Shown in pieces: positions 5,690 through 8,699 of a stretch of 11,622 bases of DNA. The DNA is from Betaproteobacteria bacterium (GTDB taxonomy: Bacteria; Pseudomonadota; Gammaproteobacteria; Burkholderiales; SG8-39). Under the pieces are notes generated by a model. That model did no database searches, had not been told where the DNA came from, and saw only the letters and a program-made list of their open reading frames with translations. The stretch is from the NCBI GenBank assembly GCA_029865405.1, contig JAOUGZ010000042.1:1-11622 (forward strand), read 5' to 3'. Position numbers and translations under genes: made by a program. Each line of letters starts with the position of its first letter. Position 1 is the stretch's first letter.

Positions 5690-6268
5690 CTAAGCCGTGA
5701 CGCGGTACACGGCCAGGCTGCCGAGCAGGTTCGGCAGCACGCGCACCGGCCGGCCGTGGTGCAGCACGACGCGCTCGCGGATCTTCGCGCCGAGCTTTGC
5801 GCACAGGTCCTCGAAATCGTGCAGCGTGCACAGGTGCACGTTGGGCGTGTTGTACCACTGGTGCGGCAGCTCCTCGGACACCGGCATGCGCCCCCGCAGG
5901 ACCTGCAGACGAGCCTGCCAGTGGCCGAAGTTCGGGAACGACACGATCGCCTCCTTGCCCACGCGCAGCATCTCGCGCGTGAGGAACTCGATGCGGTGGA
6001 TGGTCTGCAGCGTCTCCGAGAGAATCACGTAGTCGAACGAGCCACCCTGGAACAGCGCCAGCCCTGACTCCAGGTCGAGCTGCAGGACGTTGACGTCATT
6101 GCGAAAGCAGGCCAGCACCTCGGCGTCGTCGATCTCGACGCCGTAGCCGTGCGCCTGGTTCTTCTCCCACAGGTGCCGCAGCAGCGAGCCGTCGCCGCAG
6201 CCGAGGTCGAGCACGCGCGCCCCGGGCACCACCCACTGCGCGATCGCTTCGAGGTCGGGGCGCGTCAC
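5690..6268 (-). CDS. metW: MetW, methionine biosynthesis partner protein
   Basis: MetW is a class-I methyltransferase-fold protein that accompanies metX in many proteobacteria and is needed for, or supports, the homoserine acyltransferase step of methionine synthesis. The start is GTG at 6268, giving 192 residues beginning [13 protein letters not shown], the normal start and length. The GTG overlaps the metX TGA as GTGA, typical translational coupling. The SAM-binding glycine motif is LDLGCGDG (20-27), followed by the acidic strand-2 GVEID. Other MetW-like segments are [29 protein letters not shown] and [15 protein letters not shown]. It lies downstream of metX in the same message, so the leader riboswitch should control it too. 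Its own methyl acceptor, if any, is unknown. Confidence 0.94.
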
Positions 6269-7386
6269 AGCTCGATGTTCTCGAAGTAGGCGCGCAGCGC
6301 GCCGTGGTAGCGCGGGTCCTCGAGCAGGAACGCGTCGTGCCCGCCGGGAGCGTCGAGCTCGAGATAGGAGACGATGCGCCGGTTGTCGAGCAGCGCCTTC
6401 ACCATGGCGCGCGAGCGCGCCGGCGCGAAGCGCCAGTCGGACTTGAACGACACGACGAGGAACGCCGCCTGCGCGCGGGCGAAGGACTTCGCCAGGTCGC
6501 CGCCGAAATCGCCCGCGGGATCGTAGTAGTCGAGCGCCTTGGTGATCCTCAGGTAGGTGTTGGCGTCGAAGTAGGTGGAGAACTTGTCGCCCTGGTACCG
6601 CAGGTAGCTCTCGATCTCGAAGTCGATGTCGAAGTCGAAGCCGAGCGCGGCGCGGCGCAGCTGCCGGCCGAACTTCTCCATCATGGCGTCGTCCGACAGG
6701 TACGTGATGTGGCCGATCATGCGCGCGATGCGCAGGCCGCGCGCCGGCACCACGCCGTGCTCGTAGTAGTGCCCGCCGTGGAAATCGGGGTCGGTGACGA
6801 TCGCCTGGCGCGCCACCTCGTTGAAGGCGATGTTCTGCGCCGAGAGCCGGGGCGTCGAGGCGATGACGAGCGAATGCCCGATGCGCTCGGGGTAGGCGAG
6901 CGCCCATTGCAGCGCCTGCATGGCGCCCAGCGACCCGCCGATCACCGCCGCGAAGCGCTCGATGCCCAGGCGGTCGGCGAGGCGCGCCTGCGCCGCCACC
7001 CAGTCCTCCACCGTGACCACCGGGAAGTCCGCGCCGTAGGGCTTGCCGGTCGCCGGGTTGATCGAGGTCGGGCCGGTGGAGCCGAAGCAGCCGCCGATGT
7101 AGTTGTTGCCGATGACGAAGAAGCGGTCGGTGTCGAGCGGCTTGCCGGGCCCGACGAGGTTGTCCCACCAGCCGACGTTGTCCGGGTCGCCGGCGTAGGC
7201 GCCGGCTACATGGTGCGAGGCGTTCAGCGCGTGGCAGACGAGGACGGCGTTGGAGCGCGCGGCGTTCAACGCGCCATAGGTCTCGTACATGAGCTCGAAG
7301 CGCGGGATCTCGGCGCCGCTGCGGAAAGCGAACGGCTCCTCGAACGCCGCGCGCTTCGCCTCCACGATGCCCACCGAGCCGGCCAT
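6265..7386 (-). CDS. metX: homoserine O-acyltransferase (acetyl- or succinyl-)
   Basis: MetX is an alpha/beta-hydrolase-fold enzyme that transfers an acyl group from acyl-CoA to homoserine, the committed step of methionine synthesis. The protein is 373 residues from the ATG at 7386; a TTG four codons earlier is less likely because GGGGA precedes the ATG. The catalytic triad is visible: Ser152 in the nucleophile elbow GGSLGAMQ, Asp317 in SDWRF and His350 in GGHDAFLL. Other signatures are [42 protein letters not shown] and DANTYL. The acyl donor cannot be settled by eye; MetX partnered with MetW is often the succinyl type, so 'homoserine O-acetyltransferase' should not be taken as given. It is preceded by a promoter, a SAM-II-like riboswitch and an intrinsic terminator, so it should be switched off when SAM is plentiful. 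Confidence 0.95.
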
Positions 7387-7402: not shown

Positions 7403-7436
7403 AAAAAACCCGTTCAGCTTTCGCGAGAACGGGTTT
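7403..7436 (-). terminator. intrinsic terminator of the metX leader (riboswitch expression platform)
   Basis: On the - strand the 5' arm AAACCCGTTC (7436-7427) pairs perfectly with GAACGGGTTT (7415-7406) to give 10 bp. Inside the 11-nt loop, GC-GAAA-GC can add a two-pair extension capped by a GNRA tetraloop. The 3' arm runs into six T (7408-7403) and, after CG, four more T. It ends 16 nt before the metX ATG. It lies immediately downstream of the SAM-II-like aptamer. Its loop plus 3' arm (7420-7411) is the exact complement of a riboswitch segment (7483-7474), so terminator formation is probably conditional. It would also stop transcripts arriving from the upstream CoA-transferase/pts genes. 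Confidence 0.9.
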
Positions 7437-7440
7437 CGGG

Positions 7441-7497
7441 CCGTCTCTTTAGCGGCATTTGTAGAGCGCCCGCAAGCTGAACGTCAAATCGGCGCTT
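7441..7497 (-). promoter_or_regulatory. SAM-II-like (SAM-alpha) riboswitch aptamer upstream of metX
   Basis: The - strand RNA begins with AGCGCC (7496-7491). A 20-nt loop follows, then GGCGCT (7470-7465), which closes a 6-bp P1 stem. The loop contains the conserved AUUUG just after P1 (7489-7485) and CUUGC just before the P1 3' strand (7477-7473). After a short A/U-containing linker comes the conserved GCUAAA (7453-7448), the 3' pseudoknot strand. Order, spacing and conserved words match the SAM-II H-type pseudoknot known upstream of metX/metA. A possible outer pseudoknot helix is CGUU (7483-7480) with GACG (7445-7442). I aligned this from memory of the family and did not fold it. The downstream gene is metX, the classic target. 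A predicted transcription start falls right at P1, as expected for this compact aptamer. Confidence 0.85.
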
Positions 7498-7504
7498 GAC
7501 GCGG

Positions 7505-7510
7505 ATTATA
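7505..7510 (-). promoter_or_regulatory. -10 box of the metX promoter
   Basis: A perfect TATAAT is read from 7510 to 7505 and overlaps the stop codon of the upstream CoA-transferase gene. It places the start of transcription at about 7498-7497, one or two bases before the first P1 base of the riboswitch. The -35 region is poor (TGGCAA at 7534-7529 with an 18-bp spacer, or ATGGCA with 19), so the promoter may be modest or need an activator. A TTGACG further down (7487-7482) is part of the riboswitch and is probably not a -35. Confidence 0.7.
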
Positions 7511-8699
7511 GCCGGGCCGCGCCGCTCTTTGCCATCGCCTCGATCTGCGCGTCCGAGTAGCCGGCCTCCTTCAGCACCTCGCGCGTGTGCTCGCCGAAGC
7601 GCGGTGCGTGGCGCCGGTACTCGGGCTCGGTCTCCGACCATTCCGAGGGCACCTTCATCGACAGGAGCTTGCCTTCGCTCGGGTGCTCGACCGGCGTGAA
7701 GTAACCGATCGCCTCGAGGTGCGGGTCCTTCAGGATGTCCTCGAGGCTGTTCATGCGCTGCACCGGGATGTCGGCGGCGCCGAGCGCGGCCAGCCACTCG
7801 TCGGTCGTGCGCCGCGTCATCTCGTCGGCGACGAAGCTGTAGACATCGTCGAAGTTCTGGCTGCGCCCCTCGGCGGAGGCGAAGCGCGGATCGGCCACCA
7901 GGTCGGAGCGGCCGACCATCTCGAAGAAGGCCTTCCAGTGCTTGTCGTTGTAGATCAGCGCGCAGACGTAGCCGTCCCTGGTCTCGTAGGGGCGGCGAAA
8001 GCGCGTGAGCATGCGCCGGTAGCCGCCCGGCCCGAGCTGCGGCACGAAGGTGTACCCGCCCAGATGCTCGCCGAGCACGGACTGCAGCAGGCTCTCGAAC
8101 ATCGGCACGTCCACGCGCTGCCCCTTGCCGGTCTTCTCGCGCGCGTAGAGCGCCGCGCTCACCGCGTTCGCGGTGTGCAGGCCCACCGAGCGGTCGGCGA
8201 TGATCACCGGCGTGTAGCGCGGCGACTCGCCGCTTGCCTCGCGCGACAGCCACGGCAGGCCGGCGGCGCCCTGGATCAGGTCGTCGTAGGCTGCCTTGGC
8301 GGCGTAGGGCCCGCGCTGGCTGTAGCCGAAGCAGCCGACGTAGATGATGCGCGGGTTCGCCGCGCGCACGTCGTCGTAGCCGAGCTTGAGCCGCGACATC
8401 GCCTGCGGGCGGATGTTGTACACGAGCACGTCGGCGGTCTTCGCCAGCGCGAGGCACGCGTCGCGCCCCTCGGGCTGCTTGAGATCGAGCACGATGCCGC
8501 GCTTGTTGCGGTTGGCGTTGAGGAAGATGTGGCCCATCCCCTTGGAGCGGAACGGCCAGGCCCAGCGCATGATGTCGCCCTCGGGCGGCTCCACCTTGAC
8601 CACGTCGGCGCCGAAGTCGGCGAGGATCTGCGTCGCGTAGGGACCCATCACCACGGTGGTGAGGTCCAGCACGCGCACGCCATCCAGCGGTCCGGGCAT
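7506..8699 (-). CDS. CaiB/BaiF family CoA-transferase (class III)
   Basis: This is a class III CoA-transferase that moves CoA between carboxylic acids through an enzyme-bound aspartyl-CoA intermediate. The 397-residue length is normal for the family. Signatures are the N-terminal PLDGVRVLDLTTVVMGPYATQILADFGADVVKVE (4-37), NRNKRGIVLDLK, YNIRPQAMSRLKLGYD, and AYDDLIQGAAGL, where Asp139 is the likely catalytic aspartate. The C-terminal domain carries a family-like APRFGEHTREVLKEAGYSDAQIEAM tail. The ATG at 8699 is preceded by AAAGG with 6 nt spacing, and lies 12 nt after the ptsI stop on the same strand, so it is probably the distal gene of the pts transcript. The acids used cannot be told from sequence; close relatives are annotated as formyl-CoA, succinyl-CoA:dicarboxylate or alpha-methylacyl-CoA enzymes. 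The metX promoter overlaps its stop codon. Confidence 0.9.
   Translation of the reverse strand: MPGPLDGVRVLDLTTVVMGPYATQILADFGADVVKVEPPEGDIMRWAWPFRSKGMGHIFLNANRNKRGIVLDLKQPEGRDACLALAKTADVLVYNIRPQAMSRLKLGYDDVRAANPRIIYVGCFGYSQRGPYAAKAAYDDLIQGAAGLPWLSREASGESPRYTPVIIADRSVGLHTANAVSAALYAREKTGKGQRVDVPMFESLLQSVLGEHLGGYTFVPQLGPGGYRRMLTRFRRPYETRDGYVCALIYNDKHWKAFFEMVGRSDLVADPRFASAEGRSQNFDDVYSFVADEMTRRTTDEWLAALGAADIPVQRMNSLEDILKDPHLEAIGYFTPVEHPSEGKLLSMKVPSEWSETEPEYRRHAPRFGEHTREVLKEAGYSDAQIEAMAKSGAARL

Follow-up and report, generated by a model that had tools for sequence, protein, structure and literature searches.

A SAM-II leader of metXW that probably controls termination by exchanging four strands, with a predicted response to SAM

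Results

The metXW leader

On the minus strand of a betaproteobacterial contig, a leader of ~110 nt separates a CoA-transferase-family ORF from metX-metW. It was analysed within its window, by which we mean the whole stretch of DNA, 11,622 nt in length. The features are listed in Table 1.

A TAYRMT box located 4–10 nt 5′ of helix P1 was seen in 26 of 37 leaders of relatives sharing 75% or more MetX identity (28 of the 37 have a terminator, 9 lack one), where shuffled sequences gave a mean of 0.8. As such a box is common in the close leaders, the RNA probably starts near 7497. A promoter scan of the leader region listed no sigma-70 promoter at the TATAAT site. The minimum free energy fold of 7505-7398, which has a 5′ hairpin (z −1.33; 20 of 200 shuffles as stable), was set aside since this hairpin uses bases upstream of the likely start that are probably not transcribed.

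Table 1. Features of the metXW leader and its surroundings (positions in the window; ranges in the remarks run in the direction of the transcript where they descend)
Feature	Position	Strand	Sequence	Remarks
CoA-transferase-family ORF, upstream of leader	7506-8699			stop codon 7508-7506
−10 promoter box	7505-7510	−	TATAAT	overlaps the stop codon of the CoA-transferase-family ORF
SAM-II (SAM_alpha) aptamer, whole Rfam match	7428-7505	−		RF00521, full model 1-79
P1 5′ strand	7491-7496	−	AGCGCC	pairs with 7470-7465; −10.0 kcal/mol
Loop strand	7474-7483	−	CGUUCAGCUU	5′ strand of both pseudoknot P2 and antiterminator
P1 3′ strand	7465-7470	−	GGCGCU	partner of 7491-7496
P2 3′ strand (pseudoknot tail)	7442-7449	−		pair placement set by hand
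Tail strand of second (proximal) antiterminator helix	7441-7447	−	GAGACGG	pairs with 7432-7425, one bulged U
Terminator 5′ arm	7427-7436	−	AAACCCGUUC	hairpin −16.6 kcal/mol
Tail partner in terminator 5′ arm and loop	7425-7432	−	CCGUUCUC	from transcript folding
Antiterminator 3′ strand	7411-7420	−	AAGCUGAACG	5 hairpin-loop bases (7420-7416) and 5 3′-arm bases (7415-7411)
Terminator 3′ arm	7406-7415	−	GAACGGGUUU	U run 7408-7403
metX (homoserine O-succinyltransferase type)	6265-7386	−		NF047916, 652.4 bits (cut-off 560); likely start ATG 7386
metW, 3′ of metX	5690-6271	−		TIGR02081, 254.5 bits (cut-off 189.5)

Aptamer and terminator

The aptamer matches RF00521 with 36.3 bits (E 2.9e-5), marginally above the gathering score of 36, and contains the conserved GAUUUG, CUUGC and GCUAAAG of this family; like other SAM-II elements it precedes methionine genes, here metX and metW. 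The metX copies of four relatives score 43.1–43.5 bits. With R1, a beta model built from 61 aptamers (the first 60 of 92 selected, plus the window), the aptamer scores 75 bits, the window sequence itself being part of the training set. In alignment A1, which comprises the window and 29 leaders (30 sequences; L084 and L100 were left out), the aptamer core is invariant, and it is nearly so in alignment A2. Five of the six P1 pairs form in all 30 sequences and the outermost one in 24. For P1 and P2 together 92.3% of the A1 cells are paired, and three pairs have changed on both sides. P2a is short, its outermost pair being absent in 19 of the 30 sequences, and the sequence also allows an alternative register of P2 in which a single U of the loop strand is bulged. 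The leader is predicted to bind SAM.

An intrinsic terminator (7436-7406 followed by the U run) stands between the aptamer and metX. Its pairs are formed in 97.2% of the A1 cells and four of them have changed on both sides. The loop is a small GC-GAAA-GC cap, which we take to be of the GNRA type. A simple terminator scan missed the hairpin: the stem is interrupted before the 11-nt apical part, and the scan allows loops of 3–8 only. The initial annotation had described an aptamer, a terminator, metXW as the target and two pairings that exclude each other; Rfam, folding, family matches and the sequence bear out all four.

Among 200 genomes of the order, RF00521 gave matches above the cut-off in 37 and at E ≤ 0.001 in 88, and R1 gave matches at E ≤ 0.001 in 156, although many R1 training sequences come from genomes that were then searched with it and its E-values are rough. 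Thus, the Rfam SAM_alpha model gives low scores to beta-proteobacterial copies, and its cut-off leaves out most of them, so that much of that branch is missed. Representatives of the other SAM-II loci precede metZ, metY, metH (partial), metA and metK, and for two of nine downstream proteins checked at such loci no family was assigned. SAM-II elements lie shortly 5′ of metK (methionine adenosyltransferase) at L096 and L265, both family-checked, with which L111 and L269 group by BLAST. At L163 the element lies shortly before a threonine ammonia-lyase gene, a target absent from the parts of the SAM-II literature covered here. On the opposite strand of the window (7403-7522, plus strand) RF02424, the Burkholderia sRNA Bp2_287, matches with 29.2 bits, below its cut-off of 70. 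As the reverse complement of the RF02424 consensus holds the SAM-II core and a terminator, this family seems to be antisense to a SAM-II leader. RF02424 was not found above the cut-off in 20 loci.

A ten-nucleotide match between aptamer loop and terminator

The pairing first noticed in this leader joins the loop strand to the terminator. Direct comparison confirmed that CGTTCAGCTT (minus strand 7483-7474) is the exact reverse complement of AAGCTGAACG (minus strand 7420-7411). Neither 10-mer has a third site anywhere in the window, and the leader region 7520-7380 holds only two Watson-Crick inverted repeats of at least 10 nt, namely this match and the terminator stem (7436-7427/7415-7406). U7416, which is unpaired in the terminator, forms an A-U pair with A7478 in 28 of the 30 A1 sequences.

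When the 20-nt loop strand was dinucleotide-shuffled against the fixed terminator, a match of at least 10 nt arose in 45 of 20,000 cases (~0.2%). A scan of the entire minus strand with this spacing kept gave at least 10 nt in 24 of 11,472 windows, those of the finding itself included. Among 1291 other terminators from the fetched loci none has a 10-nt match to the loop strand and eight have one of at least 8 nt; seven reach the duplex energy obtained with the leader's own terminator (−20.3 kcal/mol). The initial claim that such a match is unlikely by chance therefore stands for a single event (~0.2%), which taken alone is not impossible; it is conservation that makes the case. A chance origin was rejected on the shuffles, the background terminators and the conservation described below.

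The match could also stem from a constraint on the terminator cap. According to this explanation the terminator is a constitutive attenuator, and the complementarity results from the aptamer GCUUGC and a GC-GNRA-GC cap (GCGCAAGC or GCGAAAGC) together with inheritance within the lineage. Such a cap forms the terminator loop in many close leaders, GCAAGC is also present in 40 of the 1291 background terminators, and L048, L062 and L070 match through the cap only; in S. meliloti, the terminator behind the metA SAM-II is not predicted to be SAM-responsive in the available text of PMC9373788. However, the match extends into the 3′ arm, with CTGAAC present in 35 of the 176 SAM-II terminators of beta-like leaders (duplicates retained) versus 6 of the 1291 background ones. 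It also includes a U that the terminator leaves unpaired, and the loop strand is cognate-specific for the 3′ arm and not for the 5′ arm (see below). A pure cap constraint leaves the 3′-arm part of the match unexplained and was rejected as its cause; we regard a constitutive attenuator as improbable.

Folding of the growing transcript

We folded the transcript at successive 3′ ends. This folding is at equilibrium and free of pseudoknots, so that the antiterminator and P1 exclude each other in it though they might coexist. With the loop strand left free, a helix between the pseudoknot tail and the terminator 5′ arm (tail:5′ arm, −6.4 kcal/mol) forms first and is present up to the 3′ end 7416. 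The antiterminator reaches a probability of 0.98–0.99 at 3′ ends 7412-7410, and the full terminator prevails from 7408. When loop and tail were blocked to mimic, crudely, what SAM binding would do, the terminator had a probability of 0.91 already at 7412. The view of the loop strand as an antiterminator is thus supported as to the pairing and incomplete as to the design, since folding and the partner-swap tests below add the second helix.

At −35.1 kcal/mol the completed terminator state lies below the antiterminator state in energy (−30.6 kcal/mol), which means that the switch has to be kinetic. RNA polymerase covers roughly the last 8–14 nt of the transcript. The RNA exposed when the polymerase is at the U run would therefore be in the antiterminator range, making a kinetic OFF switch plausible on this model. 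A folding range dominated by the antiterminator was found in 27 of 28 close leaders (from the best 80 of 334 MetX matches), in 16 of 60 other beta-like leaders and in 6 of 49 alpha-like ones. The 60 beta-like leaders are a random draw from 118 outside set A, taken from the order and phylum samples and including some copies.

Conservation among relatives

The sample comprised 279 loci. Set A consists of the best 80 of 334 MetX matches, by record titles almost all from betaproteobacterial MAGs or genomes; for sets B (order) and C (phylum), leaders were fetched at RF00521 matches, found in 88 of 200 and 58 of 299 genomes. The aptamer pattern failed at 33 loci (13 metX loci of set A and 20 RF00521 hits), and at 21 of the remaining 246 a terminator was not found, in L087 because the contig ends. 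L263 looks mis-parsed, and one order match (G051:C7) is absent from the sample. L081–L084 re-fetch the leaders of L043, L001, L002 and L005, and L100, L104 and L109 look like copies of L022, L064 and L060; these copies are counted in the set B figures and in the pool of 118 leaders.

For each leader the pairing of the loop strand with its own hairpin was compared with that in 300 base-pair-shuffled hairpins. Set A, the best 80 of 334 matches, has the aptamer by pattern in 67 loci and a terminator in 58 of these, with p ≤ 0.05 in 47 of the 58 and p ≤ 0.01 in 37. Conservation in close relatives, on which the initial annotation had staked its mechanism, was borne out: among the terminator-bearing leaders of these best 80 with a MetX identity of at least 75%, 27 of 28 gave p ≤ 0.01, the sole failure being L042 (p = 0.106). 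In 16 of the 28 the best duplex has 12–13 uninterrupted pairs, longer than the 10 of the window, partly because the cap is GCAA where the window has GAAA.

Further away the match fades. In the wider samples p ≤ 0.05 was obtained for 46 of the 110 set B leaders and 18 of the 57 from set C. Sorted by gene, beta-like leaders gave 17 of 35 for the remaining metX copies and 29 of 83 for genes other than metX; alpha-like leaders gave 18 of 49. Over all sets the proportion declines with MetX identity: 24/24 at 80% or more (a bin with at least four re-fetched copies), 9/10 at 75–80%, 26/43 at 70–75%, 4/14 at 65–70%, 1/2 at 60–65% and 1/7 at 50–55%. The design is lineage-limited; beyond the close group, most SAM-II leaders do not show it. 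Its universality across the order was rejected on the set B figure, on the 16 of 60 beta-like leaders with the folding window and on the comparison with background terminators given below.

Within A1, 92.3% of the antiterminator cells are standard pairs, a value that falls to at most 53.5% when the strands are slid by 1–3 columns. None of the ten pairs has changed on both sides, so the support from the close clade consists of conservation and G-U wobble only. Other pair types at variable positions are seen, for instance, in L189, L135, L150 and L186, which were preselected for p ≤ 0.05. The alternative helix, exclusive with the terminator and the ligand-bound aptamer, is thus conserved. As for the covariation that had been suggested as a check, it is found in the wider beta set by the swap test and is absent inside A1.

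Nine close metX relatives have no terminator (L004, L020, L025–L027, L029, L031, L034 and L061), and in these metX starts close behind the aptamer tail. The same aptamer therefore seems to serve transcriptional and probably also translational control among near relatives. These nine would also suit an explanation in which regulation acts chiefly on translation, or through Rho, P2 masks the ribosome site and the terminator is secondary; in the available text on the crystal structure of a metX SAM-II, P2 is described as hiding that site (PMC10907184). In the window, however, the likely start codon (7386) and the GGGG site lie outside P2, with the terminator between them and the aptamer tail, and we consider such control of this leader highly improbable. 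The loop motif GTTCAG is kept in 26 of the 28 close leaders with a terminator versus 3 of the 9 without. This contrast may serve as a natural control for the design; as the nine may be a single clade, it is suggestive only.

The genomes of L001 and L005 have extra SAM-II copies before other genes: L085 (metZ), L086 and L088, the last grouping with a metH representative. In these copies the loop had no clear match to the terminator (p = 0.27, 0.50 and 0.13, respectively).

The Herbaspirillum leaders (L058, L063, L065, L067, L069, L071 and L080) have a long insertion in the aptamer loop, and their loop pairs with the terminator 5′ arm instead. Here the aptamer carries GCUUGCGGGC, the complement of GCCCGCAAGC, which spans parts of the terminator 5′ arm and loop; the exact match was confirmed in the six of the seven leaders that were checked. 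RF00521 gave no match in the one Herbaspirillum genome searched, that of L058, and R1 detects all seven leaders with 31.5–35.2 bits.

Partner specificity across SAM-II leaders

In the partner-swap test, cognate strands were compared with swapped partners in 5000 permutations of non-redundant sets of beta-like leaders. In the 85% identity set (n = 106) no permutation was as good as the cognate partners for either loop:3′ arm or tail:5′ arm, and the cross pairings gave no signal (loop:5′ arm 2264/5000, tail:3′ arm 3860/5000). The 75% set (n = 51) yielded 8 and 15 of 5000 for the two helices, and 1597 (loop:5′ arm) and 1418 (tail:3′ arm) for the cross pairings. With these results the cross pairings were rejected as exchange pairings. 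In the 68% set (n = 19) loop:3′ arm was not significant (1011/5000).

When partners were permuted inside each of 20 aptamer clusters (67 of the 106 leaders fall into one of them), loop:3′ arm gave 1/5000 and tail:5′ arm 0/5000, and in the 66 leaders without overlap of terminator and tail the latter again gave 0/5000. For alpha-like leaders the same two helices gave 23 and 2 of 5000 (n = 24) and 9 and 32 (n = 15); at n = 7 loop:3′ arm was at 1956/5000. The effect is ~0.7–1.5 kcal/mol on average. P2, the positive control, gave no signal (3272/5000), which indicates that short helices escape this test. Just 4 of the 51 own terminators in the non-redundant set at 75% are within the best 5% of the background terminators. 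Judged by sequence comparison, exactly two helices are cognate-specific across the beta leaders, loop:3′ arm and tail:5′ arm.

The two exchange helices are not independent of each other, and tail:5′ arm is tied to all three remaining pairings. One may thus ask if the local tail:5′ arm helix is the antiterminator on its own, loop:3′ arm being a by-product of four mutually complementary strands. The local helix is as cognate-specific as loop:3′ arm and the earliest to appear in the growing transcript, and when P2, the terminator and one exchange helix are complementary, this tends to imply the other. In the window, however, it is weak compared with the isolated 10-bp helix (−6.4 versus −13.3 kcal/mol), and when set against shuffled hairpins it reaches p ≤ 0.05 in 7 of the 28 close leaders; for the loop strand paired with the whole hairpin, 27 of these leaders reach p ≤ 0.01. 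We find it quite improbable that the local helix alone matters.

Discussion

Taken together, we conclude with a probability of roughly three in four that the metXW leader is a transcriptional OFF switch in which a SAM-II aptamer and an intrinsic terminator swap four strands; its response to SAM is a prediction. With SAM, the loop strand (7483-7474) and the tail (about 7449-7442) would be locked in P2, so that the terminator arms (7436-7427 and 7415-7406) would pair with each other and transcription would end before metXW. Without SAM, P2 would not be held, and the tail (7447-7441) would take the terminator 5′ arm (7432-7425). The loop strand would then capture the terminator loop emerging from the polymerase, followed by the 3′ arm (7483-7474 with 7420-7411). 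Since half of the partner is the terminator loop, which is made before the 3′ arm, the antiterminator could start first. Formed early, it would delay the hairpin while the polymerase passes the U run, leaving the switch ON, and expression of metXW would be expected to follow.

SAM-II elements with terminators in betaproteobacteria are already in print. In its available text, Corbino 2005 (PMC1273637) proposes SAM-II as an OFF switch with a putative terminator in many copies, and Bordetella bronchiseptica is among its organism abbreviations. The present leader resembles the SAM_alpha described there (RF00521) in having P1, a pseudoknot P2, the conserved GAUUUG, CUUGC and GCUAAAG and a place before methionine genes; unlike in the covered part of that text, the antiterminator strands are named here. 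Barrick and Breaker 2007 (PMC2258182) report transcription-attenuating SAM-II in alpha- and beta-proteobacteria, the mechanism not being experimentally established; the strand pairing given here is absent from the portion of their text available. For the alphaproteobacterium S. meliloti, SAM-induced termination at the metZ SAM-II with an sRNA of ~100 nt is predicted by Scheuer 2022 (PMC9373788), who note a lack of earlier studies on how SAM-II affects gene expression. In G. oxydans, also an alphaproteobacterium, RNA-seq coverage of the SAM-II leader before a sulfhydrylase gene is 20-fold above that of the ORF, and a terminator and an antiterminator are predicted (PMC5756330). The exact exchange strands are not in the parts of these two texts that were covered.

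Another close relative of the present leader in the literature is the metXZ RNA element, presented as novel in the available text of Leyn 2014 (PMC4239095), where SAM_alpha is reported only in Rhizobiales and Rhodobacterales. The metXZ element is likewise a beta-proteobacterial leader of metXW or metZ, with two pseudoknotted helices followed by terminators that are called non-conserved in sequence. By its description in that text, it has six conserved regions, of which 1 pairs with 4 and 2 with 6, a topology that fits P1 and P2, and its authors speculate that an antiterminator arises by pairing of regions 3 and 4 with one arm of the terminator. The metXZ element is very probably the SAM-II of the present leader, which differs from the published account in being read here as SAM-II with defined, coevolving exchange strands. 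In the literature covered, mostly open titles and abstracts and few subscription papers, we found neither metXZ identified as SAM-II nor these exchange strands named. As far as found, the exact strands, their coevolution and the metXZ identification are therefore new, the class and the kind of expression platform being known already.

A broader proposal, which we hold to be evenly balanced between right and wrong, is that metXZ is SAM-II and that transcriptional SAM-II switches, those of alphaproteobacteria included, operate through a reciprocal exchange of four strands, the two pseudoknot strands themselves turning into the antiterminator strands and the terminator loop serving as the kinetic landing site. 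The named strands make this model of terminator control by SAM-II testable by mutation. If it is true, the 'novel' metXZ RNA element is explained by a known riboswitch.
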